DNA from: Deltaproteobacteria bacterium
GTDB taxonomy: Bacteria; Desulfobacterota; Syntrophia; Syntrophales; JAFGHS01
Direction of reading: 5' to 3'
Length of the DNA: 64,000 nt
NCBI GenBank assembly: GCA_016928025.1
Contig: JAFGLN010000031.1
Coordinates: 1-64,000, forward strand
Shown: in pieces, positions 19,573 to 51,790 of the stretch
How positions within the stretch are numbered: position 1 is the first letter of the stretch
Layout: each line of letters opens with the position of its first letter
Translations under genes and position numbers: made by a program
The notes under the pieces: model-generated
Told to the model about the DNA's origin: nothing
Database searches by the model: none
Seen by the model: the letters and a program-made list of their open reading frames with translations, nothing else

Positions 19573-20355
19573 ATGAAAAAGTCCTCTTCGATCAATTCGG
19601 TTTTCAAAACCTTCCGACTCATTGATATTCTCAGTGTGCCCAATGCCGAATACAGTCTGACGGAAATTACCAAAAGGCTCGATCTTTCCATCGGCGCGGC
19701 GCAAAGAATCACGAATTCACTCATGCAAATCGGTTATCTGGCAAAAGATAAGAAAACCAAGAAATATCGTCTCACTCCCAAATGGCTGTCCGTTGGATTT
19801 GGTATCTTGGCCGGCATGGAAATCCGTAAGATAGCTCTTCCGCACTTGAAACAGCTTTATAAGGAAACGGGCCAAACGGTGAGTTTTGTGATCCGTGACG
19901 GTGACGAAGTCATCTATATCGAACGGCTGACGACCCAGGACTTGATCGGGTTCAACATCAGGACAGGTCTAAAAAGGCCTATGTATATGAATTCCATGGG
20001 GCGGGCGATACTGGCTTATCTGCCGGTTGATGATCAGGCAGAAATATTGAAACGCACCATATCGACCAATGGAAATGCCAAAGGATCGCTCAAGCGCGAC
20101 AAGATGGAGGCAGAGTTAAAAAAAATAAAACAAATGGGCTATGCCATCAACAGAGTCAGTTACAGCGGCGGTGCCATGGCGGTATCCGTGCCCATATTCA
20201 ACCAGAAGGGTAAACCCATTGCCGGTATTAATATCGGTATGCCGCCGAAAACCTCTCCGGAAGACGAACACTTTCATAAAATGGTTGAAATGTTAATGAA
20301 AACGGGGAGAACAATTTCTTCGGAGATCGGTTATATGGATGACATGGAGGAATAG
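19573..20355 (+). CDS. IclR-family transcriptional regulator
   Basis: 260 residues. The N-terminal winged helix-turn-helix (about 10-65: RLIDILSVPNAEYSLTEITKRL, SIGAAQRITNSLMQIGYL) is followed by the IclR ligand-binding domain (QTVSFVIRDGDEVIYIERL, RPMYMNSMGRAILAYL, SYSGGAMAVSVPIF). IclR proteins sense small organic acids, often aromatic or acyl-derived, and control degradation operons. It is the only DNA-binding regulator in the 41-kb acyl-CoA cluster and precedes the crotonase and CoA-transferase run. It is probably autoregulated through the palindrome at 19535-19563. Confidence 0.93.
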   Translation: MKKSSSINSVFKTFRLIDILSVPNAEYSLTEITKRLDLSIGAAQRITNSLMQIGYLAKDKKTKKYRLTPKWLSVGFGILAGMEIRKIALPHLKQLYKETGQTVSFVIRDGDEVIYIERLTTQDLIGFNIRTGLKRPMYMNSMGRAILAYLPVDDQAEILKRTISTNGNAKGSLKRDKMEAELKKIKQMGYAINRVSYSGGAMAVSVPIFNQKGKPIAGINIGMPPKTSPEDEHFHKMVEMLMKTGRTISSEIGYMDDMEE

Positions 20356-20409: not shown

Positions 20410-21252
20410 ATGAGCTGTCTAATATATGAGAGCAAAGACAAGGTCGCCACGATCTCGTTTAACCGGTCTGATAAGCTCAATGCCTTGAACGACGAGCTGT
20501 TGAACGAGTTTAATGCGGCTTTGATAGAAGCCGAACAGGATGACGATGTGGCTGCCTTGGTTCTGAAAGGCAACGGCAGGGCGTTTTGCGCCGGCTATGA
20601 TATCAGCGGAACGGGTACCGCCGATACGGATTTTGATATGCGATCGGAAACCGATGTGACTGAATTGATAAAAAAACAGCGCCGCCGGCAAAAAAGCATC
20701 TTCAACCTGGCCCGGTTTCCCAAAACGAAAATCGCCCAGGTCCACGGCTACTGTCTGGAAATGGGATGCTCCTTCGTCATGGCCTGTGATATTTCCTTTG
20801 CCGACGAGAATGCCCAATTCGGGGATCCTTCAGTGCGCTTTGGGCTGACGACGGATACGCCGTTCTGGTATCATTTGGTTACCCACCGGAAAGCCAAAGA
20901 GCTGCTTTTTACCGGCAGAATTATTGACGGCAGGGAAGCGGAACGCATTGGCATCGTCACGAAGGCGGTTCCCGCGGACCAGTTGGAGCAAAAAGTAAGA
21001 GAGATGGCCTTGACCGCATCCCTGACACCTTTTGATGGGTTGACCAACAATCTGGAAGGCTTTCAGACGGGCATCGACGCCAGGGGTCTGGCGGAAGGCT
21101 GGCGATCCGCCGCAGATCGAAGGGCGTTTGGTATATTACAGCGCCCCGCTTCGCGTTCGGGCGAGTTTAATTTCCTGGATGTCCGTGACCGGAAAGGGTT
21201 GAAAGTAGCCCTCGCCGAGATGAATGCGCCTTACAGGATGTGTGGATATTAG
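20410..21252 (+). CDS. Crotonase-family protein lacking both catalytic glutamates (paralog A1)
   Basis: 280 residues. The oxyanion-hole motif is kept in altered form (GRAFCAGYDISG). The first catalytic Glu is Ser (HGYCLEMGCSFVMACD) and the second is also Ser (FGDPSVRFGL). It therefore should not hydrate enoyl-CoA by the classic mechanism; a hydrolase, decarboxylase or ring-opening role is possible. It is closely similar along its length to the gene at 22435-23283, including the C-terminal EFNFLDVRD...MNAPYR. GGGAGGAGAG precedes the ATG. Confidence 0.9.
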   Translation: MSCLIYESKDKVATISFNRSDKLNALNDELLNEFNAALIEAEQDDDVAALVLKGNGRAFCAGYDISGTGTADTDFDMRSETDVTELIKKQRRRQKSIFNLARFPKTKIAQVHGYCLEMGCSFVMACDISFADENAQFGDPSVRFGLTTDTPFWYHLVTHRKAKELLFTGRIIDGREAERIGIVTKAVPADQLEQKVREMALTASLTPFDGLTNNLEGFQTGIDARGLAEGWRSAADRRAFGILQRPASRSGEFNFLDVRDRKGLKVALAEMNAPYRMCGY

Positions 21253-21328
21253 GACAAGGAACAAGGCTCAAAGCTCGAATACCGCAGACCCTTGACCCTG
21301 TTTTTGTATCGGAGAAAGGAAAGAAACC

Positions 21329-22156
21329 ATGAGTTACGAATACATCCTTTACGAAAAAGAGGCTCCCATCGCCCGGATCATTATGAATCGTCCGGAAAAA
21401 CATAATCCCCTGGGAAAGCCCATGATGAGAGAAATCATCAAAGCCTTGGAGATCGCCGGTGAAGACAGGGAAGTAAAAGTCGTCATCATCAAAGGCGCCG
21501 GCCGTTCTTTCAGTTCGGGACATGACATCCCCGCCATCGGCATGGATATCGAACTCGGTCCGGAATATATAGGAAAGAGGCCCCCGGCAAAAATGCTCAT
21601 TGAGAGAGATGAGTGGCTCAAAAGGGAATTCTATCAATACGTGTTTAATTTTCCGAAACCGACCATCGCGCAGGTTCACGGCTACTGTATATACGGCGGC
21701 AATAATTTCCAGCTTTGCTGCGACATTACCATCGCGGCGGAAAATGCCCAATTCAAGCCCAAAGGCGATACGATCGTCACCATTGCCAGTTACCTGCCTG
21801 CCGACACTTTTGCGACTGGCTTCGGTCCGCGCCATCTCGGTGTCAAGATGGATGGCAAGGTCGCGGAGAAATGGGGTGTGGTCAACCGGGCCGTTCCGCT
21901 GGAAAAGCTCGAGGAAGAAGTGGAAACATTGGCAAAGGTTATTGCCCAAATGCCGGAGGACAGCGTTAACCTGAATAAAAAATGCCTGAACGCCATGATG
22001 GATTTCGATGGTCTGGAGGCGGCCTGGAGAACGACGCATATTGCCCATGCCATGGGGACGCATCAGCGGGTGCGCTCCGATGAGTTCAACATCTTCAAAA
22101 TGAGGGCGAAGGAAGGCGCGTCGGCGGCTATTCATGCGCGTCAACGAAAACGATAG
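21329..22156 (+). CDS. Crotonase-family protein lacking both catalytic glutamates (divergent)
   Basis: 275 residues. The fold is shown by NRPEKHNPLGKPMM, GRSFSSGHDIPA, HGYCIYGGNNFQLCCD and KWGVVNRAVP. The first catalytic Glu is Asn (GGNNF) and the second segment is rewritten (FKPKGDTIVTIASYLPADT). Overall it is nearer to the 52810-53667 protein than to its two neighbours. GGAGAAAGG precedes the ATG. The reaction is not known; it lies between two other crotonases and probably belongs to the same transcript. Confidence 0.88.
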   Translation: MSYEYILYEKEAPIARIIMNRPEKHNPLGKPMMREIIKALEIAGEDREVKVVIIKGAGRSFSSGHDIPAIGMDIELGPEYIGKRPPAKMLIERDEWLKREFYQYVFNFPKPTIAQVHGYCIYGGNNFQLCCDITIAAENAQFKPKGDTIVTIASYLPADTFATGFGPRHLGVKMDGKVAEKWGVVNRAVPLEKLEEEVETLAKVIAQMPEDSVNLNKKCLNAMMDFDGLEAAWRTTHIAHAMGTHQRVRSDEFNIFKMRAKEGASAAIHARQRKR

Positions 22157-22169
22157 CGGAAACGGCTTT

Positions 22170-22277
22170 GTAAAAAGTCCGGATGTGGCGTTGCCCTGCG
22201 ATATTCGTCATTGCGATGTACGCAACTGTACGTCTCATTCCTCATATCTCGTGCGCCTTGCCTGCGGAGCTTTTTAC
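22170..22277. repeat. MITE-like element, family F (GTAAAAAG ends)
   Basis: 108 bp with inverted ends GTAAAAAG and CTTTTTAC, an internal GCGATGTACGCAACTGTACG palindrome and a GCGCCTTGCCTGCGG right arm. The same right arm plus CTTTTTAC survives as fragments at about 30530-30556 and 35762-35796. It has no coding content. Confidence 0.6.
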
Positions 22278-22434
22278 CAAACCTTTGTTCGAATTATTGA
22301 TTAACATGAATCTTCCTTTCGAGAAAAAGAAAATATCAGTGTTTCAATTTTTGCCGCTGACCCGGGGAGAGGGTTTAATAAGGTAGATTGATTTTTTCTC
22401 GTCAACTGAATTGGATTTATTGGAGGAGAAACAT

Positions 22435-23283
22435 ATGGGTTTCGAAAACGTTATCTATACGAAAAAGGATAGGGTTGCCGTCATTTCACTGAATCGCCCT
22501 CATAAGCTAAACGCGCTGAACGAGCCGCTGCTGGCTGATTTTGATGCGGCTTTGAAGGCGGCGGAAGAGGACAGAGCGGTTGCCGTTCTGACCATTCAGG
22601 GAGAAGGTAGGGCGTTTTGCGCCGGCTATGATGTGAGCGGCGACGAAAATTCGGATCCGGCCTTTGACTGGCGAAACAAACCAATGATGTATGATCTGTA
22701 TACCAGAGAAAGACGGCGCCAGGACCGGATTGAGAATCTGGCCCGATTTTCCAAACCGACGATCGCCAAAATTCACGGCTATTGCCTGGAAGCGGGTTGT
22801 TCCATCGTCCTGGCCTGTGATTTTGCCGTGGCGACGGAAGATGCCCGGTTCGGTGATCCTTCCGTGAGAATGGGCATGTGCACGGATCTGCCGCTCTGGT
22901 ATTACGTCCTGGGAATCAAAAGAGCGAAAGAACTGATGCTGACCGGGAAAATCATCGACGCGGCGGAAGCGGAGCGGATCGGCCTGGTCACACAAACAGT
23001 GCCGGTGGATAAAATTGATGAGGAAGTTGACAAGCTCGTCCAGGTCCTGCTGGCGAACCCCGCCGATGCCCTGCGGAATAACCGGGAGGCATTCCAGGCG
23101 GCCCTGGAGGCCAGGGGTCTCTCCGCGGGTTTCCGGTTTGCCGGTGACATGCGGGTTTTCAGCGTCCTGCAGCGACCCGGTTCCCGACCGCGAGAGTTTA
23201 ATTTCTTTGAGCGGCGGGACCAGAAAGGCTTAAAGGCTGCCTTCGAAGATATGAACGCGCCATTTAAGAAGCTGGGATACTAA
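22435..23283 (+). CDS. Crotonase-family protein lacking both catalytic glutamates (paralog A2)
   Basis: 282 residues. It shares with the 20410-21252 protein GRAFCAGYD, HGYCLEAGCSIVLACD (Glu to Ser), FGDPSVRMGM (Glu to Ser) and the EFNFFERRD...MNAPFKKLGY ending, so the two are paralogs that kept the same unusual active site. This argues for a selected, distinct chemistry rather than decay. The strong GGAGGAG precedes the ATG at 22435; an upstream in-frame TTG at 22411 is unlikely. Confidence 0.9.
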   Translation: MGFENVIYTKKDRVAVISLNRPHKLNALNEPLLADFDAALKAAEEDRAVAVLTIQGEGRAFCAGYDVSGDENSDPAFDWRNKPMMYDLYTRERRRQDRIENLARFSKPTIAKIHGYCLEAGCSIVLACDFAVATEDARFGDPSVRMGMCTDLPLWYYVLGIKRAKELMLTGKIIDAAEAERIGLVTQTVPVDKIDEEVDKLVQVLLANPADALRNNREAFQAALEARGLSAGFRFAGDMRVFSVLQRPGSRPREFNFFERRDQKGLKAAFEDMNAPFKKLGY

Positions 23284-23356: not shown

Positions 23357-25090
23357 ATGCTTGCGGATGTTTACAAACTGGAACCTTACGAAAAGATCGA
23401 CAAGGTTGTTGATTTAAAAACAGCTATCGAAAAGCACATCAAAGACGGGATGACCCTCTATATCAGCCGGTCGGCGGAAGCCGCGGCAGCGGAAATCATC
23501 CGTCAGTTCTGGGACCGCAACCCCGATTTTACCCTGATGATGAATCTACCCGGAGGCGCTCAGGCCATGTGCCTGATGCACCGGGGCCTGATCAAAAAAC
23601 TGATTTTCACGACCTGCGCAGACCTCTATCCCAGCCCCAGCCCGAATCCGATTATCCAGCGGGCTTACCGGCAAAAAGCGGTCGAATTCGAAAACTGGTC
23701 GGTTCTGTCCTTTACCCAGGCCCTGATGGCGGGTGCCTTGAACCTGCCTTTTATGCCGACTCTGTCCATTACCGGCAGTGCCATGGCCGAAGAAAACAGC
23801 GGCGCCTTTACTCAGATTGAAGATCCTTTTTCCGGGGAGCCAATCGGTGTCGTAAAGCGTATGAACCCTGACGTGGCGCTCTATCACGGCTGGGCGGCCG
23901 ATGCGGCAGGCAATACCATTATCGCCCCTTACGGTGACGACCGGGAGTGGGGGGCGAAAGCCGCCACGTCCGGTGTTATTGTGACGGTGGAAAAGATCGT
24001 CTCCACGGATTTCATCCGGGAGCACGCCAACATGGTCAAAATACCCGCCTATATGGTGGATGCGGTCTGTCTCGCGCCTTTGGGCGCTCACCCGCGTGCC
24101 ATGAACAGCCGGGGACTTCCGGAATTTGAATCCTATGATGTGGATGTGCCGTTTTTAGAAGACTTCCGGGAGGCGGGCAAAAAACCGGAGACCCTCGATC
24201 AATGGGTCGGAGAGTGGATACTGGGCTGTAAAAACCATGAGGAGCGTCTGAAGAAATTAGGCGTCGAGCGGATTTACCGGCTGAAGGGCAAAACCGCTAA
24301 AGACAGCTGGCAGTACCGCTTTATTCAAACGGCGGATGAAGCCAGTGAACCCAAGCCATATAACGGCATCGAGTTTGCCATTGTCGCCGCCTCTCATAAA
24401 ATTAAGGACATCTTTATAAAGGGCGGCTTCAAAGCCATGTTCGCGGGTATCGGCATCGGTGGACTGGCCGCGTGGCTGGCCTACTATGCCCTGAAATCGG
24501 AAGGTTGTGAGGCGTATATGGTTGGTGCTGGTATCGGTTTCGATCCGCGCCCCGCCGATCCTCTCATGACGTCGTCCAGCAATATTGCCACATCGAGGAT
24601 GCTGGTAGATCCCATTGATATCCACGGCGTCTGCATCGGCGGCGTGAAAAAAGCGTGTCTCGGCATTCTGGGGGCGGCGCAAATCGACAAGAACGGAAAC
24701 CTCAATTCCTCCAAGGTGAGTGAAAAGACTTATATCGGCGGGGCCGGCGGCGGTAATGACATCGCCAACGGCGCGAAAGAGGTCGTTGTCATCACCAAGC
24801 AGAAAAAGGAGCGTTTTCTGGAGAAGGTATCTTACATCACCTGTGCCGGAAACCACGTGAAAACATTGATCTCCGATCTCGGCATTTTTGAAAAGAAAGG
24901 TGCTGCGTTCGAGTTGACGCATTATTTTTCTGCGGACGGAACTGCGAAAGACGACGTTTTGCAAAAGATCGCCGATCGTTGCGGGTGGGAATTGAAGGTC
25001 TCAGAGCGGGTTCAGGCGGCGGCCGAACCGACGGTTGAAGAATTGGCCTTGTTGAGATCGCTCGATCCGGAAGGGGTATTTATCGGTTAG
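23357..25090 (+). CDS. Fused family I CoA-transferase-like protein without nucleophilic Glu (IpdAB-like), copy 1
   Basis: 577 residues. The N-terminal half resembles glutaconate CoA-transferase subunit A (LKTAIEKHIKDGMTLYIS, ALYHGWAADAAGNTI). The C-terminal half resembles subunit B (GAAQIDKNGNLNSS, GGAGGGNDIA, VSYITCAGNHVKTLISDLGIF). The segment that carries the catalytic Glu in subunit B (ESG) reads VGAGIGFDP, so residue 390 is Gly. Loss of this Glu is also reported for IpdAB, a CoA-thioester C-C hydrolase of cholesterol ring cleavage. A ring-opening hydrolase is therefore an alternative to CoA transfer. CGGAGAT precedes the ATG. Confidence 0.88.
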   Translation: MLADVYKLEPYEKIDKVVDLKTAIEKHIKDGMTLYISRSAEAAAAEIIRQFWDRNPDFTLMMNLPGGAQAMCLMHRGLIKKLIFTTCADLYPSPSPNPIIQRAYRQKAVEFENWSVLSFTQALMAGALNLPFMPTLSITGSAMAEENSGAFTQIEDPFSGEPIGVVKRMNPDVALYHGWAADAAGNTIIAPYGDDREWGAKAATSGVIVTVEKIVSTDFIREHANMVKIPAYMVDAVCLAPLGAHPRAMNSRGLPEFESYDVDVPFLEDFREAGKKPETLDQWVGEWILGCKNHEERLKKLGVERIYRLKGKTAKDSWQYRFIQTADEASEPKPYNGIEFAIVAASHKIKDIFIKGGFKAMFAGIGIGGLAAWLAYYALKSEGCEAYMVGAGIGFDPRPADPLMTSSSNIATSRMLVDPIDIHGVCIGGVKKACLGILGAAQIDKNGNLNSSKVSEKTYIGGAGGGNDIANGAKEVVVITKQKKERFLEKVSYITCAGNHVKTLISDLGIFEKKGAAFELTHYFSADGTAKDDVLQKIADRCGWELKVSERVQAAAEPTVEELALLRSLDPEGVFIG

Positions 25091-25106
25091 AAGGAGCCAT
25101 GGATTT

Positions 25107-26342
25107 ATGACGGGAACAAAAAGACATCCTCAACCCCTTGATCACCTCACGGTCATCGAAATCGGAAACAACATCTCCACGGCCTATGGTGCCAAGATGC
25201 TGGCCGATCAGGGGGCGGAGGTCATCAAAGTCGAAGATCCGCTGACGGCGGAAATGGACCGGACGGAAAGGATTTTGCCGGGTGATGAGAAAACCGGCTG
25301 CCTGTTTGCTTATATCAACTGCAACAAATTAGGTGTCCGTTTAAACCTGGAGACCGAGAAGGGACAGAAGGTCCTGGCTGATCTGGTCCGCAAGGCGGAT
25401 ATCCTGGTGGAAGGAAACCGGCCTTCCAGAGCGAAAGAGCTGGGACTGGATTATGAGACACTCTCAAAAATCAATCCACGGCTCCTGGTTGCTTCGATTA
25501 CGCCTTTCGGGCAGACAGGGCCTTATTGCGAATATAACGCCTATGCCATCACAGTGAGTGCCGCCGGCGCTTCCAGCGTGTGCATCGGAGAACCCGGACG
25601 AACGCCGCTGCCGCTACCTCTTTCTCAAGTTCATTTTCAGAGTGCCGCCATGGCGGCGACGGCCCTGCTGGGTGGCATTCTGGCCCGGGAATTCACGGGC
25701 CGGGGGCAGCATATCGATATCAGCGAGGCGGAAGTCTGGATCACCCACTTTACGGGGCATGCCGTGATTGCCTATGTCTTTCACAATAGACGCCGCATCC
25801 GGTCAGGTCACAAGACCCAGGCCCTTTTCCCGAATGGGATTTTTCACTGCAAAGACGGCTATATATCCTTGCTGGCCATGCGCGGCGAACAATGGAAGGC
25901 GTATCTCAATATTCTGGGTGAAGGGAAAATGCCGGACTGGTACGCGAATGATGAGAGATTCACAAGGACCAGTTTCCGGGAGCTTAACGTCAAATATGGC
26001 GATGAGTTGGAAGTCCTCATGGAAAAATGGCTGATGACCAAAACAAAAAATGAGATCTTCGAACTGGGCCGGATCAATCATGTTGCTTTGGCCCCGGTCA
26101 GAGATATTCGAGAAGTGCTGGAGGATCCCCATCTCAACGATAGAAAATATTTTGTGGATGTCGATGATCCCCAGTTCGGCAGGCTGAAATATCCCCAGTC
26201 GGCGCTCCGGTTTTCCCAGACGCCCTCCGCTGTTTACCGGCCGGCGCCGACATTGGGGGAGCACAATGAAGAAATTTTTTGCAAACGCCTCGGCTACACC
26301 AAAGAATATGTCAATGAACTTGCCGAATGCGGCGTGATTTAG
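25107..26342 (+). CDS. CaiB/BaiF CoA-transferase, degenerate subunit of pair 2 (Asp to His)
   Basis: 411 residues of the class III family (TVIEIGNNISTAYGAKMLAD, VEGNRPSRAKELGLDYETL, GRGQHIDISEAEVWI, LGEHNEEIFCKRLG). In the nucleophile segment HFQSAAMAATALL the Asp is replaced by His176 (codon 25632-25634). AAGGAG precedes the ATG. The Asp-bearing partner begins 18 bp after its stop. It resembles the degenerate subunits at 16612 and 33060 in its C-terminal wording. Confidence 0.92.
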   Translation: MTGTKRHPQPLDHLTVIEIGNNISTAYGAKMLADQGAEVIKVEDPLTAEMDRTERILPGDEKTGCLFAYINCNKLGVRLNLETEKGQKVLADLVRKADILVEGNRPSRAKELGLDYETLSKINPRLLVASITPFGQTGPYCEYNAYAITVSAAGASSVCIGEPGRTPLPLPLSQVHFQSAAMAATALLGGILAREFTGRGQHIDISEAEVWITHFTGHAVIAYVFHNRRRIRSGHKTQALFPNGIFHCKDGYISLLAMRGEQWKAYLNILGEGKMPDWYANDERFTRTSFRELNVKYGDELEVLMEKWLMTKTKNEIFELGRINHVALAPVRDIREVLEDPHLNDRKYFVDVDDPQFGRLKYPQSALRFSQTPSAVYRPAPTLGEHNEEIFCKRLGYTKEYVNELAECGVI

Positions 26343-26360
26343 GGAGGGAGATTTCAGCAG

Positions 26361-27608
26361 ATGGATAAAAGCAAATATCCTTTAAGCGGTATCCGGGTCC
26401 TCGACTTTGGATGGGTCGCCGCCGGCCCTTCGGCCACGAAAATACTGGCGGACATGGGCGCGGAGGTCATTAAGGTCGAATCCCGCAAGCGGCCCGATAC
26501 GACACGGTTTACGCCGGACAATATCGAGCGGTCGCCGGAGACGGACCCGGCCTTTCACAGCCTCAACCGCAATAAGCTGGGTATTACCATCGACATGACC
26601 AAACCGGAGGGATGTGAACTTTTGAGAAAGCTTGCCGCCAAGACTGATATCGTCCTGGAGAATTTCTTTCCCGGTGTCATGAAAAAGTTCGGTCTCGATT
26701 ATGAATCCCTGCGCAAAGTGAAACCGGATATCATCATGGTTTCCATGCCCGGTTTAGGCAACTGGGGGCCTCAAGCCGAGACGCCGTCCTATGCGCCGGG
26801 GCTTGCCGCTCTGTCCGGGCTGGAGAGCATGGTCGGATACAAAGGGGAGCGGGCTTTAGGCCTGCAGCAGCCCTATTCGGATTACAATGCGGGAACCAAT
26901 TCCGCCTTTGCCGCCCTGGCGGCCCTGATTCATCGGAATCGCACGGGGGAAGGACAAAATATTGAAGTGGCGCAGATTGAAGCCCTCGTCGCCTGCATCG
27001 GCGAAGCCGTTCTGGATTATCAGGTAACAGGTAAAGTGCCCGGTCTGGAGGGAAACCGCCACGGCCGGATGGCGCCCTACAACAACTACCTTTGCGACGG
27101 CGACGATAAATGGGTGTCCATTGCCGTGAGGACCGATGAGGAATGGAAAAATCTGGTCGAGGTGATGGCGGATGAACCTCGCCTTAAGAATGAGAAATTC
27201 GCCGCCATGGACGGACGAATGGCCAACCAGGATGAATTGGACGTTGTCATTTCGGACTGGACCATCAGCCGCTCAGCCGAAGAGATCACCGAGATGCTTC
27301 AGGAAAAGGGCGTGGCGGCTTTTCCCTGTATGGACATCGGCGATTGTTTTCTCGACCCGCATTTTCAGGATCGGGAGGTCTTCATTCCCTTGGAGCATCC
27401 CGTCTCCGGCGATGAGTTTATCGCCAATCTGTCCTGGAAAATGAGTGAAACGAACGGCGGCGTCTATCGGTCCGCACCGCTCTGGGGACAGCATAACCAC
27501 TATGTTTTCGGCGAAGTGCTGGGCTTGTCGCAGGAAGAGATTGCCAGGCTGGAAGATGCGGAGGTGATCCAAAAATTTCAGGAACCGGAGAGAAAGAATA
27601 AGGGATAG
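26361..27608 (+). CDS. CaiB/BaiF CoA-transferase, catalytic subunit of pair 2
   Basis: 415 residues (RVLDFGWVAAGPSATKILAD, VLENFFPGVMKKFGLDYESL, GEGQNIEVAQIEALV, WGQHNHYVFGEVLG). The nucleophile segment PYSDYNAGTNSAFAALAAL keeps the Asp at residue 174 (codon 26880-26882). It is most like the catalytic member of pair 3 (34273-35505). AGGGAGGGAG precedes the ATG. The partner is the preceding Asp-less gene. Confidence 0.93.
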   Translation: MDKSKYPLSGIRVLDFGWVAAGPSATKILADMGAEVIKVESRKRPDTTRFTPDNIERSPETDPAFHSLNRNKLGITIDMTKPEGCELLRKLAAKTDIVLENFFPGVMKKFGLDYESLRKVKPDIIMVSMPGLGNWGPQAETPSYAPGLAALSGLESMVGYKGERALGLQQPYSDYNAGTNSAFAALAALIHRNRTGEGQNIEVAQIEALVACIGEAVLDYQVTGKVPGLEGNRHGRMAPYNNYLCDGDDKWVSIAVRTDEEWKNLVEVMADEPRLKNEKFAAMDGRMANQDELDVVISDWTISRSAEEITEMLQEKGVAAFPCMDIGDCFLDPHFQDREVFIPLEHPVSGDEFIANLSWKMSETNGGVYRSAPLWGQHNHYVFGEVLGLSQEEIARLEDAEVIQKFQEPERKNKG

Positions 27609-27616
27609 GTAAAGTC

Positions 27617-28801
27617 ATGACTCCACTCGCTTTAAACGGCATCAAAATCATCGATATCGGCTATTACCTTCCGGCGGCTTATTGTACACAAATGCTGGGA
27701 GATATGGGTGCTGATGTGATCAAGATTGAGGAGCCCATTACGGCCAGGCATCGTCGCGGCGGTGCCGGGGTGTCTGCTGCGCCGGGAGAAGGTGCGGAAA
27801 AGAAATCAGCCTATGACTTTTTCAACCGCAACAAAAAGAGTGTGATCCTCGATATGAAATCAAAAGAGGCACTGGACATCTTTCACCACCTCGCCGGCCA
27901 GGCCGATGTCATGATCGAAAACATGCGTCCCGGCGTCGTTAAACGTTTGGGCATCGATTATGATGCCCTCAAAGTGATCCATCCGCGCCTGATCTATTGC
28001 TCCATTTCCGGCTTTGGTCAGGACAGCCCTTACAAAAATCTGGCCGGCCACGATCCCAATTACTGTTCCATTGCCGGCGCCCAGATGCTGAACCTTGACC
28101 GCGATAAAAAGCCCATTCGCTTCGGTGTGCCCCTCGGTGATATCGGCACGGCCTTACATGCGGCGATCGGTATTCTGCTGGCCGTCATTGCCCGCGGCCA
28201 TACGGGCCGGGGCCAGTATATCGATACATCCATGACGGACAGCGTCTTTTCCTTTGTCAGCAGAAGCCTGAGGGGCTGGATTAATCCCGATCTCTGGCCG
28301 GGAACAGAGTATGAGGAGGTGGTTTTGGGACCTCTGGAAGTTAAGAACGGCCAATTTATTACTGTTGGCAATATTGAACCTTACTTCTGGGAGCGTTTCT
28401 GCAAGGCCGTTGGCCGGGAGGATTTTATTCCCTTCAAAAACGCCAAGGGCGAAAAAGGGGAGGTAATGACATCCGAGATCAAGAGAATTCTTCTGACGAA
28501 AACGAGAGATGAATGGGTCGATATTTTAACCAGGGCCGATACGGCCATAGCGCCCGTCTTGGAAGCCGGAGAGGTTTTGAACGATCCCCATATTCAGGCA
28601 AGGCAGCTGGTGCTGGATCTGGACCATCCGACACAGGGCAAAGTCAAACATATCGGTTTTCCCATTAAGCTGTCCGATACGCCGGGGCAGGTTCGCAGTT
28701 TCGCGCCTTTTGCCGGCCAGCATACGGAAGAAGTCCTCCGAAGCCTGGGATACAGTGAAGATGAAATAAAAATGCTAAAAGAAAAGGGAATTATTCAATA
28801 G
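27617..28801 (+). CDS. CaiB/BaiF CoA-transferase, single catalytic gene
   Basis: 394 residues (IKIIDIGYYLPAAYCTQMLGD, MIENMRPGVVKRLGIDYDAL, GRGQYIDTSMTDSVF, GQHTEEVLRSLGYSEDEI). The nucleophile Asp175 is in PLGDIGTALHAAIGILLA (codon 28139-28141). Unlike the paired genes it has no Asp-less neighbour of its own and looks like an ordinary homodimeric enzyme. It begins eight bases after the previous stop, within one operon. Confidence 0.93.
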   Translation: MTPLALNGIKIIDIGYYLPAAYCTQMLGDMGADVIKIEEPITARHRRGGAGVSAAPGEGAEKKSAYDFFNRNKKSVILDMKSKEALDIFHHLAGQADVMIENMRPGVVKRLGIDYDALKVIHPRLIYCSISGFGQDSPYKNLAGHDPNYCSIAGAQMLNLDRDKKPIRFGVPLGDIGTALHAAIGILLAVIARGHTGRGQYIDTSMTDSVFSFVSRSLRGWINPDLWPGTEYEEVVLGPLEVKNGQFITVGNIEPYFWERFCKAVGREDFIPFKNAKGEKGEVMTSEIKRILLTKTRDEWVDILTRADTAIAPVLEAGEVLNDPHIQARQLVLDLDHPTQGKVKHIGFPIKLSDTPGQVRSFAPFAGQHTEEVLRSLGYSEDEIKMLKEKGIIQ

Positions 28802-28835
28802 TTGATATGATGAATAGAAGAAAAAAAAAGAGATG

Positions 28836-29043
28836 CAGCGTTTGGAGCCCTGCGCCGCTCAAGAATCTTTTCTCGACTCTGCAGCTGCTCGCTGCACTGC
28901 CGGGACGACAACTCGTGCCTGACGGCGCTCAGACATTCGTCCCGTCGGTCGTTACGCTGCGCGCGCAGGGGGCGGGGACAGTTTTCAAAACTGTCCCCAT
29001 ACATTCGATTCGCGGCTTTGAGCTCCTGCACGCCGTTACAACT
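28836..29043. repeat. Long-hairpin repeat, family B, copy B1
   Basis: About 200 bp that folds on itself. Outer arms TTTGGAGCCCTGCGCCGC and GATTCGCGGCTTTGAGCTC, middle arms around GAATCTTTTCTCGA, and inner arms GCCGGGACG / CGTCCCGTCGG are inverse copies. It carries an extra perfect 25-bp palindrome (28974-28998) built on GGGGACAGTTTT. It fills most of the 316-bp gap before the MaoC-like gene. Other copies: 30804, 32809, 35881, 47404, 49071 (deleted) and 50852. Confidence 0.85.
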
Positions 29044-29117
29044 TTGACGTTCCACACAAACATTAGCAACATCTTAGAACGATCATATTTATAAGGAATA
29101 TAACGGGAGGAAACATC

Positions 29118-30284
29118 ATGGCAGAAAAAAAGACAAAACTCGCTGAAGGAAAGATCACCGAAGAGGCTCTCGACCAGCTGCGCAGCCGGATCGGGATGAA
29201 GCTGCGCATCCATCCCGACAGCGGCAACCGTAACATATCGGAAGAAACCATCCGGAAGTTCGTCAACGGCACCGGCGACATCAATCCCCTCTACCGGGAC
29301 CCCGAATATGCCAAGAAGACCCGCTACGGCAAACTGGTTGCTCCGCCTTCCTGGTTGTACAGCGTTTTTCAGATGGGCGTCATGCATGGCCTGGCCGGTG
29401 TTCATGGCTGGCATTCCGGCGACGACTGGGAATTTTATAAGCCTCTCCTGGATGGCGACCGGATCAAACCGGAAGCGATATTCAAGGGCTTTGAGGAAAC
29501 GAAGAGCGGCTTTTCCGACAGGATGATCAAAGTTTATCAGGACAGGCTCTATTATAACCAGCGGGATGAGCTGGTGGCAAAGGCTCTCGGCTGGACCTTC
29601 AAGGCCGAGCAGAGCAACGTCCGGAAAAAGGGGAAGTATGCCAAACTGGAGTTGCCCCATCCTTGGACGGACGAGGAGCGCGACGAGATCGACGATCAGA
29701 TTATGGCGATGAAGATCCGGGGGCCTGAAGTCCTGTATTTTGAGGATGTCAATATCGGCGATGAAGTGCCCCAGGTCATCAAAGGCCCCATCGGTATCAC
29801 CGATGAAGCGGCCTTCTACGGTGGAACCTCCGGCCGGTTGATGGCCCATGAAGCGGCGTTGGCCGGTTATAAAAAGCACCCGGCCTGGGGCTTCCGTGCA
29901 GGCGATACGACGGCCTGGGAACCCCGAGCAGCAGTCCATTGGCTGATTGAAGCGGCACAGGGCGCCGGTCTTCCCTACATGTACGAGATCGGCATGGAGC
30001 GAAATTCCTGGACCATCCAGATGTTCACTAGCTGGATCGGCGACGAGGGATGGCTGAAGAACTGTTACGCAGAATACCGCGCGTTCATCTACCTGGGAGA
30101 TGTGGCCTTCATCAAAGGTACGGTTACCAAGAAGTATGACGACGAAAACGGCGAGCCTTGCGTGGACGTGGAGATTCTAGGTACCAATCAGCGGAAAGAA
30201 ACCATCGTGAAAGGCCATGGGACGGTCATTCTGCCGTCGAGGGAGAAGAAGACATGGCCTTTGGAGTCGCGGTTGGCGAAATAG
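29118..30284 (+). CDS. MaoC-like double-hotdog acyl-CoA dehydratase homolog
   Basis: 388 residues. The N-terminal half is a hotdog dehydratase domain with GDINPLYRDPEYAKKTRYGKLVAPPSW. The (R)-hydratase motif is DxNPxH, and here the His is Tyr (DINPLY), so the catalytic pair is incomplete in this half. The C-terminal half (from about 200) is a second hotdog-like region with VNIGDEVPQVIKGPI but no obvious DxNPxH. The function could be hydration by a modified mechanism or a non-hydratase role. GGGAGGAAAC precedes the ATG. Confidence 0.82.
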   Translation: MAEKKTKLAEGKITEEALDQLRSRIGMKLRIHPDSGNRNISEETIRKFVNGTGDINPLYRDPEYAKKTRYGKLVAPPSWLYSVFQMGVMHGLAGVHGWHSGDDWEFYKPLLDGDRIKPEAIFKGFEETKSGFSDRMIKVYQDRLYYNQRDELVAKALGWTFKAEQSNVRKKGKYAKLELPHPWTDEERDEIDDQIMAMKIRGPEVLYFEDVNIGDEVPQVIKGPIGITDEAAFYGGTSGRLMAHEAALAGYKKHPAWGFRAGDTTAWEPRAAVHWLIEAAQGAGLPYMYEIGMERNSWTIQMFTSWIGDEGWLKNCYAEYRAFIYLGDVAFIKGTVTKKYDDENGEPCVDVEILGTNQRKETIVKGHGTVILPSREKKTWPLESRLAK

Positions 30285-30296
30285 GGAAGTGATTGC

Positions 30297-30500
30297 TTCG
30301 GAATCCATTTCGCTTGCCTGGAATTTTTTCGAGCAAATCTAAGGCTTGCTCCCGGCGATTTCAAAACGCGCCTTCGGCTCGGACAGTTGAAATCGCTGGT
30401 CTGGAGTTTATCCCGAACTTGATTCGGGGCTTTGCCTTGATTTGCGGACGAAAAAATTCCAATGGCCGCGCCATGGATTTCCTTCGCAACCATTTTCTTT
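30297..30500. repeat. Long-hairpin repeat, family C, copy C1
   Basis: About 200 bp whose ends are inverse copies: GGAATCCATTTCGC, TGGAATTTTTTCGAGCAAAT on the left; ATTTGCGGACGAAAAAATTCC, then GGCCGCGCCATGGATTTCC on the right (each arm interrupted by mismatches). The second copy is at 35513-35698. Both follow genes directly and precede a family B copy. No gene is present. Confidence 0.75.
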
Positions 30501-30529
30501 TCCAATTGTTTCATAATTAATTAGCGCGC

Positions 30530-30790
30530 CTTGCCTGCGGTGCTTTTTACGAAGCCGCAGTTACGGTCTCCGTTCTTTGATGTGAATTATTATTCTTGTC
30601 ATTCTGGCGAATAGACTGTGTCGTAATGGCAAAAAGTGCCTTTTGAGCAGTCACCCCGGCGAAAGCCGGGGTCCAGTAGGTATTAGTAAATCCTGGATTC
30701 CGTGTCGCGCTTTGCTTGCACGGAATGACAAGAAAAACGAATTGTGACATAGCTTTGAAAACCGGAATCCAGGAAAAAGATAAAGAATAT
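30530..30790. repeat. Family F fragment plus GAAA-loop hairpin repeat
   Basis: This part of the 732-bp gap contains the family F right arm (GCGCCTTGCCTGCGG then CTTTTTACGAAG) and a CCCCGGC-GAAA-GCCGGGG hairpin at 30654-30671 within a GTCCAG...CTGGATTCCG repeat that ends near 30733. Related CCGGAATCC sequence is at about 51685-51775. No gene is seen. Confidence 0.5.
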
Positions 30791-30803
30791 TTTGCCAATA
30801 GTA

Positions 30804-30988
30804 GGCGGCCTGCAGGAGCACGGAGACGCGAATCGAAGATTTTTCCGGGGCCCTTCTGCGCGCGCAGCGGAACGACCGACGGGACGCATGTCTGAGCGCG
30901 GTAAGCGCGAGTTGGCGTCCCGTCAGTGGAGCGAGCAGCTGCAGGGTCGGAAAAAGATTCTGAGCGGCGGAGTGCTCCGAATGATGCC
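30804..30988. repeat. Long-hairpin repeat, family B, copy B2 (opposite orientation)
   Basis: Same element as B1, inverted, without the 25-bp inner palindrome: at that place it has TTTTTCCGGGGCCC. It ends about 28 bp before the ATG of the second IpdAB-like gene. Confidence 0.85.
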
Positions 30989-31016
30989 AATATTTTAAAG
31001 AGGGAAACCATTGACC

Positions 31017-32783
31017 ATGAGTACCGAAATGATTGACGTCATCCGGCGGAATTTTGATCTGGATCTGGCTGAGGGCGGGGAAGACAAAGTCGTCGACCTT
31101 CCCGACGCCGTCAGAAAGCACATCAAACCGGGGCAGGCAATACTCCTGGGCGAATTCGCCAATGCGGCGACGCGGGAGATAGCGCGGCAGTTCCGGGATA
31201 CCGATGCGGCTTTCACCATTATCAATGCCAGCCGGGACTATTTATCGGCCCTGGTTTACAACGGCCTGGTAAAAAAGCTCATCGGTGTGGCCTATATGCA
31301 CCTCTACCCCACTACCGGGCCGAACCGCCTCATTCAAAAGGCCTTCAACGAAGGGCGCATTGCGATCGAGGGATGGACGTCCATCAGTTTGCAGCAGCGG
31401 TTGATCGCGGGTGCCATGGATATGGAATGTATGGTGACCAAGTCCCTCCTCGGGTCCGATATGGTTGCGGACAATTCGAGTAGTCTCCATACATTCCAAT
31501 GTCCTTTTGAGAGCGGGAAGGAGTTGGCCCTGGTCAAAGCGATCAATCCCGATATTGCCGTTGTCCACGGCTGGTTTGCCGACCGGCAGGGTAACATCAT
31601 TATGGGATCGCCTTACTATATGGGAACGAGCACCTGGGGCGCCCGGGCCAGTAAGGAAGGGGTTGTGGCGACGGTGGAAAAAATCGTTTCGACGGAGTTC
31701 ATCCGGAAGCATTCCTGCCTGGTGTCCATTCCCAGCTATATGGTGAAATCGGTTTCCGAAGTCCCGTTCGGAGCCCATCCTCAGAGCATGAATACCCTAG
31801 GCCTCGGCATGGACGGATATACCAGTTATCGGCCGGACATCCCCTTCATCGGCGCATACCGGGACACCGTTTCGGACCCTGCCAAGTTGAAGGCCTGGAT
31901 GGACGAGTGGGTTTATAATTGCTCCAGCCAGGAAGACTATCTGGCAAAACTGGGACGTGAGCGGCTCGATGCATTGTCTTCAGGCATCGGCGAGGGTGAG
32001 GGGCAGATGGAACTGGCTAATCTTTTAAGCACCGTATCCTTCAGCCCCGAATACACAAAAAACGAATTGACCGTTGTGGCGGCGGCGAGAAAGATCGAGG
32101 AGATCGTCCTCCGGAAGGGTTATGTCAATTTCCTGCTCGGCGTCGGTTTCAGCGCCCTGGCCGGCTGGTCAGCATACTACCAGCTGAAAAAGCAAGACAT
32201 CCCCATTAAATTGTTGATCGGCACGGGGGTATACGGCTATTCGCCGCAGCCCGGCAATCCGTCCATCGGCGCGACGTCCAACATCGAAACGGGCTGCCTG
32301 ATGACCGATGCGTTCCAGAGCTACGGCACGTTCATCGGCGGATACAACAATCGCTGCTTGAGCGTCCTGGGGGCGGCGCAGGTCGACAAACACGGCAACG
32401 TCAACGCGACCAAGGTGAACGGCCAGTTTATCGCCGGCTCCGGGGGATCCAACGACGCGGTGAACGCACAAGAGGTCATGGTCATTTCCCGGCAGTCTCC
32501 CAAGCGTTATGTCGATCGCGTCGATTACATTACCTCTCCGGGGACGAGGGTCAAAACCCTCGTGTCCGACATGGGGGTTTTTGAGAAACTGGGCGACGAC
32601 AAAGAATTCACATTGACGGGCGTCCATGTTAGCGGGGCCGGTTTGGAGGAGAAGATCAAAACAGTTCGTGAGAACTGCGGCTGGGACCTGAAGGTTGCCG
32701 CCGATGTGAAGGAGATGGCCGCGCCGGATGTGGAAGAGCTGGCTATGATCCGGTGCTTTGATCCGGACAGGTTGTATAGATAA
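31017..32783 (+). CDS. Fused family I CoA-transferase-like protein without nucleophilic Glu (IpdAB-like), copy 2
   Basis: 588 residues, the same A+B fusion as 23357-25090 and clearly its paralog (VVHGWFADRQGNIIMG, GAAQVDKHGNVNATKV, GSGGSNDAV, YITSPGTRVKTLVSDMGVF). The catalytic-Glu position again holds Gly (residue 402 in LLIGTGVYGYSPQP). Two separately retained copies sharing the same loss point to a real function. The ATG at 31017 has GAGGGA about 12 bases upstream; a TTG at 31011 is in frame. It may act as a CoA-thioester ring hydrolase like IpdAB (inference). Confidence 0.88.
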   Translation: MSTEMIDVIRRNFDLDLAEGGEDKVVDLPDAVRKHIKPGQAILLGEFANAATREIARQFRDTDAAFTIINASRDYLSALVYNGLVKKLIGVAYMHLYPTTGPNRLIQKAFNEGRIAIEGWTSISLQQRLIAGAMDMECMVTKSLLGSDMVADNSSSLHTFQCPFESGKELALVKAINPDIAVVHGWFADRQGNIIMGSPYYMGTSTWGARASKEGVVATVEKIVSTEFIRKHSCLVSIPSYMVKSVSEVPFGAHPQSMNTLGLGMDGYTSYRPDIPFIGAYRDTVSDPAKLKAWMDEWVYNCSSQEDYLAKLGRERLDALSSGIGEGEGQMELANLLSTVSFSPEYTKNELTVVAAARKIEEIVLRKGYVNFLLGVGFSALAGWSAYYQLKKQDIPIKLLIGTGVYGYSPQPGNPSIGATSNIETGCLMTDAFQSYGTFIGGYNNRCLSVLGAAQVDKHGNVNATKVNGQFIAGSGGSNDAVNAQEVMVISRQSPKRYVDRVDYITSPGTRVKTLVSDMGVFEKLGDDKEFTLTGVHVSGAGLEEKIKTVRENCGWDLKVAADVKEMAAPDVEELAMIRCFDPDRLYR

Positions 32784-33059: not shown

Positions 33060-34271
33060 ATGACAAAAAAAGCCTTGAGTGGACTGAAAATCGTTGAATA
33101 CGGCCATTTCATTTCGGCGCCGTATTGCACGAAACTGATGGCCGATCTGGGTGCTGAAGTCATCAAGATTGAAAATCCCGCTGAGGGCGGCGATGAATCG
33201 AGACGCCACGGCCCTTTCCCCGGCGATGTACCGCATCCGGAGAAGAGCGGTCTGTTTCTGTGGCTTAATGCCAACAAAAAGGGCATTGCTCTGGATATTA
33301 CATCGGACGCGGGACGGGATGTTTTTTGCAAACTGCTGAATGATGCAGATGTTTTTGTGGCCAATTATCCGCCCAGCGAGACGGAGGAATTAGGCATCGA
33401 TTACGAAGCACTTTCCGGGATTAATCCGCAGCTCGTTGTCACGAGCATCTCGCCATTCGGCCAGTGGGGACCCTACCGGGATTATAAAGCTTATGAATTG
33501 AACTGTCAGGCGGCCGGAGGCGTCAGTGTGGCGTCCGGTGATCCGGAAAGAGCGCCGCTCGTTTTGCCTTTATTCCAGAGCTACTATCAGGCCGGTGCCG
33601 CCGCGGCCGGGGCGACGCTCACGGCGTTGCTTGCCCGCGACAGAATCGGCCGCGGTCAGCACATCGAGATCTCGGAGGTGGAAGTATCGGCCAACAACCT
33701 CGTGGGGCAGCATTTAACCACCTACATCTACCGCGGCCTCACCGGAATCAGGAAAGGTCATCAAGGCGGCTATTTCAACTATCCCACCTGCTGTCTGCCG
33801 TGCAAAGACGGCTATATCTGTCTTGTTGCCCCGCAGGTCGCCCAGTGGAAACGATTCATTGAACTCATGGGAACTCCCGAGTGGTCGAAAAACCCGCGCT
33901 ACCGCGACCGCCGCGAAATGGCGGAATCCTATCCCGAGGAGGTAGACGCCCTCCTGATTGACTGGTTAAAGGACTATACGAAGGAAGAAATTTTTGCCCT
34001 GTGCATGGAGCATCATATCCCCTTCAGTCCGGTCAGAACCGTTGATGAAGTCGCTCATGATAAGCAGCTTGAAGCGCGACGCTTTTTTGTCGAAATCGAT
34101 CATCCTGTCGCGGGGAAATTGAAATATCCCGGCACAGGTTATGAGTTATCCAAGACGCCCGTGAAAATCGAATGCGCAGCGCCCCGTCTGGGCGAACACA
34201 ACCGGGAGATCATGGGCGAACGTCTGGGATATTCCGATGAAGACATCGAACGAATCATAAAGGAGCAATGA
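33060..34271 (+). CDS. CaiB/BaiF CoA-transferase, degenerate subunit of pair 3 (Asp to Tyr)
   Basis: 403 residues (LKIVEYGHFISAPYCTKLMADL, FVANYPPSETEELGIDYEAL, GRGQHIEISEVEVSA, LGEHNREIMGERLG). The nucleophile segment is SYYQAGAAAAGATLTALL; Tyr175 (codon 33582-33584) stands where the Asp should be. Its stop codon is one base before the ATG of the Asp-bearing partner, so the two are translationally coupled. That is strong support for a stable two-subunit enzyme. Confidence 0.93.
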   Translation: MTKKALSGLKIVEYGHFISAPYCTKLMADLGAEVIKIENPAEGGDESRRHGPFPGDVPHPEKSGLFLWLNANKKGIALDITSDAGRDVFCKLLNDADVFVANYPPSETEELGIDYEALSGINPQLVVTSISPFGQWGPYRDYKAYELNCQAAGGVSVASGDPERAPLVLPLFQSYYQAGAAAAGATLTALLARDRIGRGQHIEISEVEVSANNLVGQHLTTYIYRGLTGIRKGHQGGYFNYPTCCLPCKDGYICLVAPQVAQWKRFIELMGTPEWSKNPRYRDRREMAESYPEEVDALLIDWLKDYTKEEIFALCMEHHIPFSPVRTVDEVAHDKQLEARRFFVEIDHPVAGKLKYPGTGYELSKTPVKIECAAPRLGEHNREIMGERLGYSDEDIERIIKEQ

Positions 34272-34272
34272 C

Positions 34273-35505
34273 ATGTTGAGTCTTGAAGGCTATAGAATCG
34301 TTGATTTCGGAACAGCCTGGGCGGGTCCCATGACCACGCAACTCTTGGCGGATATGGGTGCCGAGGTCATCAAAGTGGAAACAAAAAGCCGTCTGGATGG
34401 TCTTCGGATGGGCCGGCCGATCGTAGGAGACGATATCGCCGGCGGCGATGAGGGAAAGTGGCCGAATCTGCAGCCGGCCTTCCATTCGTTGAATCGCAAT
34501 AAGATGAGCATCACCGTGGACATCAAAACGGAAAAGGGCCTTGATCTGATCAGAAACCTGATCAGGCTCAGCGATGTGGTGAGCGATAATTTCAGTCCCG
34601 GTGTCCTGGACAGAGCCGGTCTGGGGTATGACGATCTGGTCAAAATCAAATCGGATATTATTTGTATTTCATTAAGCGGCGTTGGGCAATACGGTCCCCT
34701 GAAAGACGCGACTCTTTATGCCAACACCATTATGGCCCTGTCCGGTTTGAGTTCTCTTATCGGTTATAAGGGAGAGCCGCTTATGGGAATGTCCGCCGTG
34801 GCGTATGGCGATGCCAACGCCAGTATCCATGCGGCCTTCACGATCTTAGCCGCTCTGTTTCATCGAAAGAGGACAGGCGAAGGACAAAAAATCGATCTGG
34901 CGGAAGCCCAGATGGGTAGCAGCCTGATGGGCGAAGCCCTGATGGATTATTTTATGAACGGACGCATTGCCGAGCCTCAAGGCAACCGCCATCCCACTAT
35001 GGCGCCTCATAATAACTATCAATGCGAAGGCGAAGACAAATGGATTTCCATTGCCGTCAGGACCGACGAAGAATGGAATAAATTTTGTGAAGCCATCGGA
35101 AATCCCGAATGGTGCAAGGACGAGAAGTTTGCCGATGCGAAGAGTCGCTGGGAAAACCAGGACGAATTGGATCGGCACATTACGGAATGGACCATCGATC
35201 GGGAGAACAACGATGTGATGGAACTCCTGCAGGGCGTCGGCGTTGCCGCTGTTTCCTGTATGAATACGGAGGACCAGTATTTCGATCCCCATTTCAATGA
35301 GCGGCAAAGCCACATTGAAATCGAACATCCTCTGGTGGGGGTGGAGTCGCTTTACGGTATTCCCTGGCGATTGAGCGAAACGCCGGGCGAAATTTACCGT
35401 CCGGCGCCGTCCATCGGGGAGCATAATGATTATGTTTTTGGGGAACTTTTAGGCAAATCGAAAGAGGAGATTGAAAGGTTGGTTGAGGCGAAGGTTATTT
35501 ATTAA
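34273..35505 (+). CDS. CaiB/BaiF CoA-transferase, catalytic subunit of pair 3
   Basis: 410 residues (YRIVDFGTAWAGPMTTQLLAD, VSDNFSPGVLDRAGLGYDDL, GEGQKIDLAEAQMGSS, IGEHNDYVFGELLG). The nucleophile Asp180 lies in AYGDANASIHAAFTILAAL (codon 34810-34812). The ribosome-binding site AAGGAG is inside the end of the upstream gene. It closely resembles the catalytic subunit of pair 2. Confidence 0.93.
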   Translation: MLSLEGYRIVDFGTAWAGPMTTQLLADMGAEVIKVETKSRLDGLRMGRPIVGDDIAGGDEGKWPNLQPAFHSLNRNKMSITVDIKTEKGLDLIRNLIRLSDVVSDNFSPGVLDRAGLGYDDLVKIKSDIICISLSGVGQYGPLKDATLYANTIMALSGLSSLIGYKGEPLMGMSAVAYGDANASIHAAFTILAALFHRKRTGEGQKIDLAEAQMGSSLMGEALMDYFMNGRIAEPQGNRHPTMAPHNNYQCEGEDKWISIAVRTDEEWNKFCEAIGNPEWCKDEKFADAKSRWENQDELDRHITEWTIDRENNDVMELLQGVGVAAVSCMNTEDQYFDPHFNERQSHIEIEHPLVGVESLYGIPWRLSETPGEIYRPAPSIGEHNDYVFGELLGKSKEEIERLVEAKVIY

Positions 35506-37322: not shown

Positions 37323-37327
37323 AATAA

Positions 37328-37397
37328 AAGGATCAAGGTCCAAGGTGCAAGGTAGAAAAAATAACTCCTTTTTCCTGCAGCTTGGCCCTTGATCCTT
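37328..37397. repeat. Inverted AAGGATCAAGG repeat (hairpin)
   Basis: AAGGATCAAGGTCCAAG at 37328-37344 and CTTGGCCCTTGATCCTT at 37381-37397 are inverse copies with one mismatch. The hairpin lies between two CoA-transferase genes, just after the stop of the first. It could slow or end transcription but has no clear T-run. Confidence 0.5.
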
Positions 37398-37423
37398 GAA
37401 CCTATCTTCTTGAGGAGTTTTTT

Positions 37424-43409: not shown

Positions 43410-43528
43410 TATGACCTCTAAGTTTAATGGATTTTAGATTCCGGGGGTCATTTATTCGACCTCTTTCTGAAAATCATCTCATGTAAATCTTTCCGACCCC
43501 TTGGATCTTTTTTATGTGGAGGAGGCTG

Positions 43529-51618: not shown

Positions 51619-51790
51619 CGGTTTTCACCTTCCTCTATTTCCTGTTCCCTGGTGGGAGAGGGGGAATCTTTACGCATGGTCATTTCGGCAAAAACCGGAA
51701 TCCGGTCTTTTTTAATCCTGCTTCAGCGGGCCCGGGTCCCGGATCGGCGTCCGGGATGACAGGAAAATTTATTTTATAGACGAACACACC

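Follow-up and report, generated by a model that had tools for sequence, protein, structure and literature searches.

Do proteins with the fold of a coenzyme A (CoA) transferase that have lost its nucleophilic glutamate still act on CoA thioesters, and if so, by what chemistry? The question is raised by two genes on a stretch of 64,000 nucleotides from a Deltaproteobacteria genome (contig JAFGLN010000031.1, positions 1 to 64,000; the window), each encoding a fused A+B protein of the glutaconate CoA-transferase (Gct) type, which we call P1 and P2. A sequence-only reading had suggested that both might be ring hydrolases of the IpdAB type. Our comparisons indicate that they belong to a different Glu-less branch, in which the Glu-x-Gly (ExG) motif of the B half has become Gly-x-Gly (GxG), and the best explanation of P1 and P2 is that they are working acyl-CoA enzymes of this branch. 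As to what they do, we tentatively favour, at a probability of about 0.35, intramolecular CoA transfer on a branched dicarboxylyl-CoA.

Results

Two maintained Gct-type fusions lack the nucleophilic glutamate

Both proteins were recovered as open frames at exactly the coordinates of the sequence-only reading (Table 1); the mechanical start of P2 is a TTG codon 6 bases upstream of 31017. The proposal that both fusions match Gct along their length was borne out. The A halves matched 1poi_A with E=1.8e-21 (P1) and 1.5e-16 (P2), the B halves matched 1poi_B with E=2e-7 and 8e-11, and the Pfam family CoA_trans was found with E=2.3e-29 and 6.7e-21, respectively; in sequence searches the best matches of both proteins were Gct, not Cat1. 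AlphaFold2 models built from 35-row alignments had predicted local distance difference test (pLDDT) scores of 92.5 (P1) and 91.9 (P2), and the top solved structure for each was 1poi_A, the GctA chain (Z 30.7, root mean square deviation 1.9 over 287 residues for P1; Z 30.4, 2.3 over 294 residues for P2), followed by SCOT-type enzymes, IpdA (Z ~28) and AibA/AibB (Z 21-25). By sequence and by model, the Gct fold is present over the A and B halves of P1 and P2.

The nucleophilic Glu of the B half is absent from both, and Gly390 and Gly402 occupy its positions, just as had been claimed. We gathered the fused family by searching genomes and plasmids, and among 72 distinct fused-type sequences the motif was ExG in 56 and GxG in 16, with no third motif. 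This set includes L046, whose A and B are neighbouring genes, while other split pairs are additional to it and L146 and L159 were removed as duplicates. P1 has a one-residue deletion at the motif (GAGI-GF), as does its orthologue L015; in one MAFFT alignment the Gly of these two lay two columns off, and their GxG status was taken from a separate alignment. A second column, that of P2 residue 436, divides the set without exception: it holds Tyr (12), His (2) or Gln (2) in the GxG proteins and Leu (44) or Met (12) in the ExG proteins. The changes that mark the GxG proteins also include loss of a Gly at P1 position 88, and apart from Tyr/His/Gln for Leu/Met at P2 436 no clade-specific new acid or base was found among the 72 fused sequences. 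The other invariant residues of the fused family are retained in P1 and P2. A Glu of the A half, E112 in P1 (FENWS) and E118 in P2 (IEGWT), is a Gct-type residue (GctA has MEDYS) that is not discriminating, since it also occurs in 49 of the 56 ExG members.

Both genes are under strong purifying selection and are maintained, because their ratios of nonsynonymous to synonymous substitution rates are 0.082 (P1) and 0.070 (P2); those of two neighbouring class III CoA-transferase genes are 0.087 and 0.071. A genome of the same genus (L006/L015, L014) has both genes in the same order, 84 and 87% identical and with the same Gly.

A Glu-less branch apparently separate from IpdAB

For a maximum-likelihood tree, a set of 115 sequences was reduced to 61 by removing near-duplicates and the majority of the split pairs, and the truncated L030, L156, L083, L128 and L010 were excluded. 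The 15 GxG members in the tree formed one clade nested in the ExG family (SH-aLRT 88.3, UFBoot 68), and this clade together with two Glu-bearing sisters (L016, L144) was supported at 99.8/93. The fused A+B architecture, the Gly, the Tyr/His/Gln at P2 436 and monophyly were thus all found in the GxG set, the last at a support of 88.3/68 only. Since the set is one clade, the co-variation of the Gly with position 436 counts as one event, not 16. P1 and P2, which are 41% identical, were placed in different GxG subclades and therefore look like old paralogues rather than a local duplication. The three IpdAB pairs formed a 100/100 clade apart from every fused protein. Because the IpdAB clade lies elsewhere and the GxG proteins are nested in a Glu-bearing fused family, the tree indicates that the Glu was lost once within the fused Gct family, independently of IpdAB, and that the ExG fused proteins are the parent family of the GxG clade.

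GxG proteins are hosted by Deltaproteobacteria metagenome-assembled genomes (MAGs), by Dehalococcoidia and other Chloroflexota, and by one Acidobacteria MAG. At E<=1e-60, the fused family as a whole was detected with P1 as query in 24 genomes out of 395 from the window's phylum, and with the L018 protein as query in 5 out of 400 from the phylum of L018. Fused Gct proteins without the Glu did not turn up in the open-licence papers covered by our literature searches.

The sequence-only reading had singled out a glutamate of IpdA, Glu105, which we likewise take to be essential for catalysis, as the residue to look for. We placed it from PDB titles and sequences. Over the stretch aligned, 6coj_A departs from 6co6_A at a single residue, an A for the E of MDEGM, and the title of 6coj, 'IpdAB E105A COCHEA-CoA complex', identifies this residue as Glu105. 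E112 and E118 had been considered by position as its counterparts and were rejected, since this comparison puts Glu105 four residues further on. In that column P1 has V116 and P2 has S122, and Glu was found in none of the 72 fused sequences, which have L, I, M, F, V, S, N, Y or Q instead, with two gaps. The idea of an IpdAB-type ring hydrolase is thus only partly supported, and membership in IpdAB fails at a defining residue: the fold and the Gly are common to both, and the descent and Glu105 are not.

B12 mutases and class III CoA-transferases are commoner near GxG than near ExG genes

P1 and P2 lie in a cluster of same-direction genes that begins with an IclR regulator and extends to an acyl-CoA dehydrogenase (Table 1). 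P2 is followed by four class III genes (five domains), then by an SMP-30-type and an alpha/beta hydrolase and an acyl-CoA ligase; the mutase large subunit is followed by a second ligase, the mutase small subunit, MeaB and the acyl-CoA dehydrogenase.

Table 1. Genes of the cluster in the window, and fused genes in or beside pantothenate operons of Chloroflexota MAGs
Feature	Locus	Position	Strand	Remarks
IclR-type regulator	window	19573..20355	+	cluster head; kept beside P1 orthologue in same-genus L015
Three enoyl-CoA hydratase/isomerase (crotonase) genes	window	20410..23283	+	directly upstream of P1; 29-35% to enoyl-CoA hydratase beside Novosphingobium ipdB
P1, fused A+B Gct-type protein	window	23357..25090	+	577 aa; Gly390 (VGAGI), Val116, clade-specific His423
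Three class III CoA-transferases	window	25107..28801	+	directly downstream of P1
MaoC/FAS1-like dehydratase	window	29118..30284	+	50% identical homologue near GxG gene in L017
P2, fused A+B Gct-type protein	window	31017..32783	+	588 aa; Gly402 (IGTGV), Ser122, clade-specific Tyr436
Two class III CoA-transferases	window	33060..35505	+	directly downstream of P2
Class III CoA-transferase and 812-aa double class III CoA-transferase	window	36087..39862	+	
Nitronate monooxygenase (NMO)/FabK-type reductase	window	43514..44485	+	32% to Novosphingobium ipd-cluster NMO gene (IpdC candidate)
B12-dependent acyl-CoA mutase, large subunit	window	45733..47391	+	nearest solved relative 2-hydroxyisobutyryl-CoA mutase (4r3u)
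B12-binding mutase small subunit and MeaB chaperone	window	51226..52792	+	
GxG fused gene	L018	9980-11740		within run DUF2520 - PanD - fused - PanB - PanC
GxG fused gene	L028	1401-3242		within run DUF2520 - PanD - fused - PanB - PanC
GxG fused gene	L038	9785-11563		directly before PanC
Glu-bearing sister gene	L016	1905-3677		same slot in pantothenate operon

We compared the neighbours of the fused genes at 13 GxG loci (5 to 64 kb; the same-genus L015 was not counted) and 47 ExG loci (3 to 30 kb), detecting neighbour genes by their similarity to proteins of the window and of the loci. B12 mutases (MCM type or MutE) were found at 5 of 13 GxG loci and 1 of 47 ExG loci (p=0.0012), and the difference was unchanged when short loci were omitted (5/11 vs 1/39, p=0.0012). 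Class III transferases were likewise commoner near the GxG genes (7/13 vs 8/47, p=0.012). Crotonases showed no significant difference (6/13 vs 16/47, p=0.52), nor did acyl-CoA dehydrogenases differ between GxG and ExG loci.

Several further features of these loci were observed. The window's mutase large subunit has CGSHMRQAGG in place of the SGYHI/M-EAG of the solved relatives shown, and it probably has an unusual substrate. At L025 (13022-14929) and L029 (13085-15126), a glutamate-mutase-like MutE and a B12-binding small subunit are flanked by class III CoA-transferases on one side and the GxG gene on the other, and may form a mutase pathway on CoA esters. The 812-aa protein at 37424-39862 has two class III CoA-transferase domains in one chain; a comparable protein of 844 aa adjoins the GxG gene in L160, and two more double class III frames (835 and 823 aa) occur in this genome. 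The 3.7 Mb genome (G000) has 36 matches to the class III family PF02515, ten of them in the window, so that the ten class III transferases of the sequence-only reading hold as domains and come from nine genes. A scan for the class III active-site motif matched 2 of the 9 genes with a pattern that was too strict. Glu-bearing fused Gct proteins are encoded on plasmids of Azoarcus sp. KH32C and R. jostii RHA1 (L109 13986-15662 and L108 13965-15776), directly behind a short-chain dehydrogenase/reductase (SDR) gene in ring-beta-oxidation-like clusters, and are annotated only as CoA-transferase.

A different setting was found in the Chloroflexota MAGs L018, L028, L038 and L016, where the fused gene lies in or beside pantothenate operons and the nucleophile column is Gly in the first three and Glu in L016. 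The DUF2520 protein of these runs, presumably the one named PanG, is a candidate ketopantoate reductase. This placement fits none of the mechanisms considered below and is the best lead to something new; no report of a fused Glu-less Gct gene in a pantothenate operon was found in open-licence papers.

Discussion

Chemistry without the glutamate

Ordinary ping-pong CoA transfer through a glutamyl anhydride is very unlikely in P1 and P2, because the Glu is Gly and the E46A and E46S variants of the beta subunit of the homologue CtfAB are inactive, with E46D being a hydrolase (PMC12400318). To this extent the doubt that the sequence-only reading had cast on ordinary CoA transfer was sound. Its further argument, that extra CoA transfer is not needed beside so many class III enzymes, fails, since ThnP shows the Glu-to-Gly change and yet works as an intramolecular CoA transferase. 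ThnP from the naphthalene-degrading sulfate-reducing culture N47 is a family I protein with Gly238 for Glu, it was shown to transfer CoA between two carboxyls of one molecule without using acetyl- or succinyl-CoA, and its authors proposed an internal anhydride (PMC11659651). Decarboxylation is also known without the Glu: AibB of AibAB has Cys56 at the Glu position, and C56A/S/N/V variants are still active, so that the side chain there is dispensable; the proton source is Glu72B (PMC7756340). The Glu-less state is therefore compatible with at least three chemistries, namely IpdAB hydrolysis, AibAB decarboxylation and intramolecular transfer of the ThnP kind.

We favour the last of these for P1 and P2. 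In a bound mono-CoA thioester of a dicarboxylic acid, the carboxylate left free would attack the thioester of the same molecule, forming an internal (cyclic) anhydride and releasing CoA thiolate, which would then re-attack the other carbonyl and so move CoA between the carboxyls of one molecule; the change from Glu to Gly may make room for the internal-anhydride step. Within the cluster, a regio-isomer delivered by the class III transferases or the ligases would be converted into the isomer used by the B12 mutase or by beta-oxidation. Mutases acting on branched acyl-CoA presumably need CoA on a given carboxyl, and an intramolecular transferase would supply that. The separation of Gly in 16 of 16 clade members from Glu in 56 of 56 others, the nesting of the clade in the Glu-bearing fused family, the ThnP precedent, the inactive CtfAB variants, the co-occurrence with B12 mutases and class III transferases, the absence of IpdA Glu105 and of any new clade-specific acid or base apart from the change at P2 436, and the low substitution-rate ratios all speak for this proposal.

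Several points weigh against it. ThnP is a single precedent and belongs to another subgroup (Cat1), and it was likened to P1 and P2 from its published description (PMC11659651). The substrate of P1 and P2 is one that we infer. Class III enzymes (Mct) are also capable of intramolecular transfer (PMC9813914), and therefore P1 and P2 might not be needed for it. The window's mutase lies 13 kb from P2, and when it is not counted the mutase association becomes 4/13 (p=0.006); the class III excess drops to 6/11 vs 8/39 (p=0.05) when short loci are omitted, and the loci are not independent, L025 and L029 for instance being sister sequences. Finally, a dicarboxylyl-CoA would not be expected in the pantothenate setting of three of the GxG genes.

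The main rival to intramolecular transfer, which we consider rather unlikely, is a separately evolved C-C bond hydrolase that would open a cyclic or linear beta-ketoacyl-CoA by an IpdAB-like retro-Claisen reaction with other catalytic residues; a ring- or chain-cleaving role of this kind is possible. IpdB likewise has Gly, Gly57beta, at the nucleophile place (PMC5380842), and our alignment puts it in the nucleophilic-Glu column. The window's crotonases and NMO/FabK-type reductase recall the genes beside Novosphingobium ipdAB, and the Glu-bearing relatives of RHA1 and Azoarcus lie behind an SDR gene in ring-beta-oxidation-like clusters. However, the Glu105 column and the separate IpdAB clade argue against it, as do the IpdB motif, TDGEA rather than GxG, and the crotonases, which are not significantly commoner near GxG than near ExG genes. 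Orthology of the NMO and crotonase genes to the ipd cluster (the Novosphingobium genes being those that we take to be EchA20 and IpdC) was considered and rejected, since 29-35% identity is a family-level likeness. Less probable still is that P1 and P2 are catalytically dead partners or CoA-thioester sensors that scaffold or regulate the class III transferases beside them or, in the Chloroflexota, the synthesis of pantothenate. Loss of the sole covalent catalytic residue and the unrelated contexts, catabolic clusters and pantothenate operons, would suit such a role, but purifying selection equal to that on two neighbouring enzymes, the kept invariant residues and the enzymatic nature of the other Glu-less members of the fold speak against it.

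We give little credence to a cofactor-free decarboxylase of the AibA/AibB kind acting on a glutaconyl-type CoA ester: AibB is also without the Glu, both Aib chains align well to the two models, and genes for dicarboxylate-type CoA chemistry are nearby, but the column holds Gly, not Cys, and there is no direct glutaconyl-CoA context. Equally improbable is an intermolecular transferase with a carboxylate nucleophile displaced to another position. E269 was considered in this role for ThnP by its authors (PMC11659651), and P1 and P2 retain most other Gct features; against this, the changes of the GxG clade, Leu/Met to Tyr/His/Gln at P2 436 and loss of Gly at P1 88 among others, include no gained acidic residue. 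Mapping ThnP E269 to P2 436 gave no result, as a profile alignment through this genome's Cat1 proteins misplaced the motif. That the motif is an artefact of annotation or assembly, a frameshift or a sequencing error is almost inconceivable; P1 is indeed one residue shorter there, but the same motifs occur in the independently assembled same-genus genome and in 12 further GxG sequences.

A bolder idea, which we consider rather unlikely, would cover both settings: the fused GxG proteins may be an undescribed Gct-fold group that performs CoA-thioester chemistry without a protein nucleophile. Having arisen once, the group would serve anaerobic dicarboxylate or branched-acid pathways beside B12 mutases and also, in Chloroflexota, a step or control point not yet recognised in the synthesis of pantothenate and CoA. 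Annotation of family I CoA transferases relies on the fold, yet the members without the Glu have proved to include IpdAB as a ring hydrolase, AibAB as a decarboxylase and ThnP as an intramolecular transferase. The GxG clade adds a further Glu-less lineage, one that has many members, can be set against Glu-bearing sisters and is cleanly marked in sequence, and so offers a natural experiment on the Gct fold without its nucleophile. It cautions against equating 'Glu-less' with 'IpdAB', and makes the GxG proteins candidates for steps still missing from the anaerobic degradation of acids and, perhaps, from CoA synthesis.

Comparison with known systems

GctAB of Acidaminococcus fermentans (1poi; family I/Gct) shares with P1 and P2 the fold, similarity over the full length and the A-half Glu; P1 and P2 differ from it in having A and B in one chain and Gly for the catalytic Glu54beta. 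The ExG fused family (e.g. RHA1_RS43630 on pRHL3 of R. jostii RHA1 and AZKH_RS25220 of Azoarcus sp. KH32C) has the same fused architecture and is 27-48% identical to P1, but keeps the Glu in 56 of 56 members and has Leu/Met at P2 436. IpdAB, the COCHEA-CoA ring hydrolase of steroid degradation (6co6, 6co9, 6coj), resembles P1 and P2 in its fold and in its Gly for the nucleophilic Glu, and differs in its clade, in having Glu105 and in its TDGEA motif; P1 and P2, for their part, are single fused chains with no close ipd-type gene set nearby. AibA/AibB, the 3-methylglutaconyl-CoA decarboxylase (5mzw and others), likewise has a Gct-type fold and has lost the Glu, but has Cys instead of Gly, two chains and a different role. 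ThnP, going by its published description, resembles P1 and P2 as a family I enzyme from a sulfate reducer in which the Glu has likewise become Gly; it belongs to the Cat1 subgroup (~46 kDa) and not to Gct. As the matches of P1 and P2 are to Gct and not to Cat1, they may work like ThnP without being members of its group.

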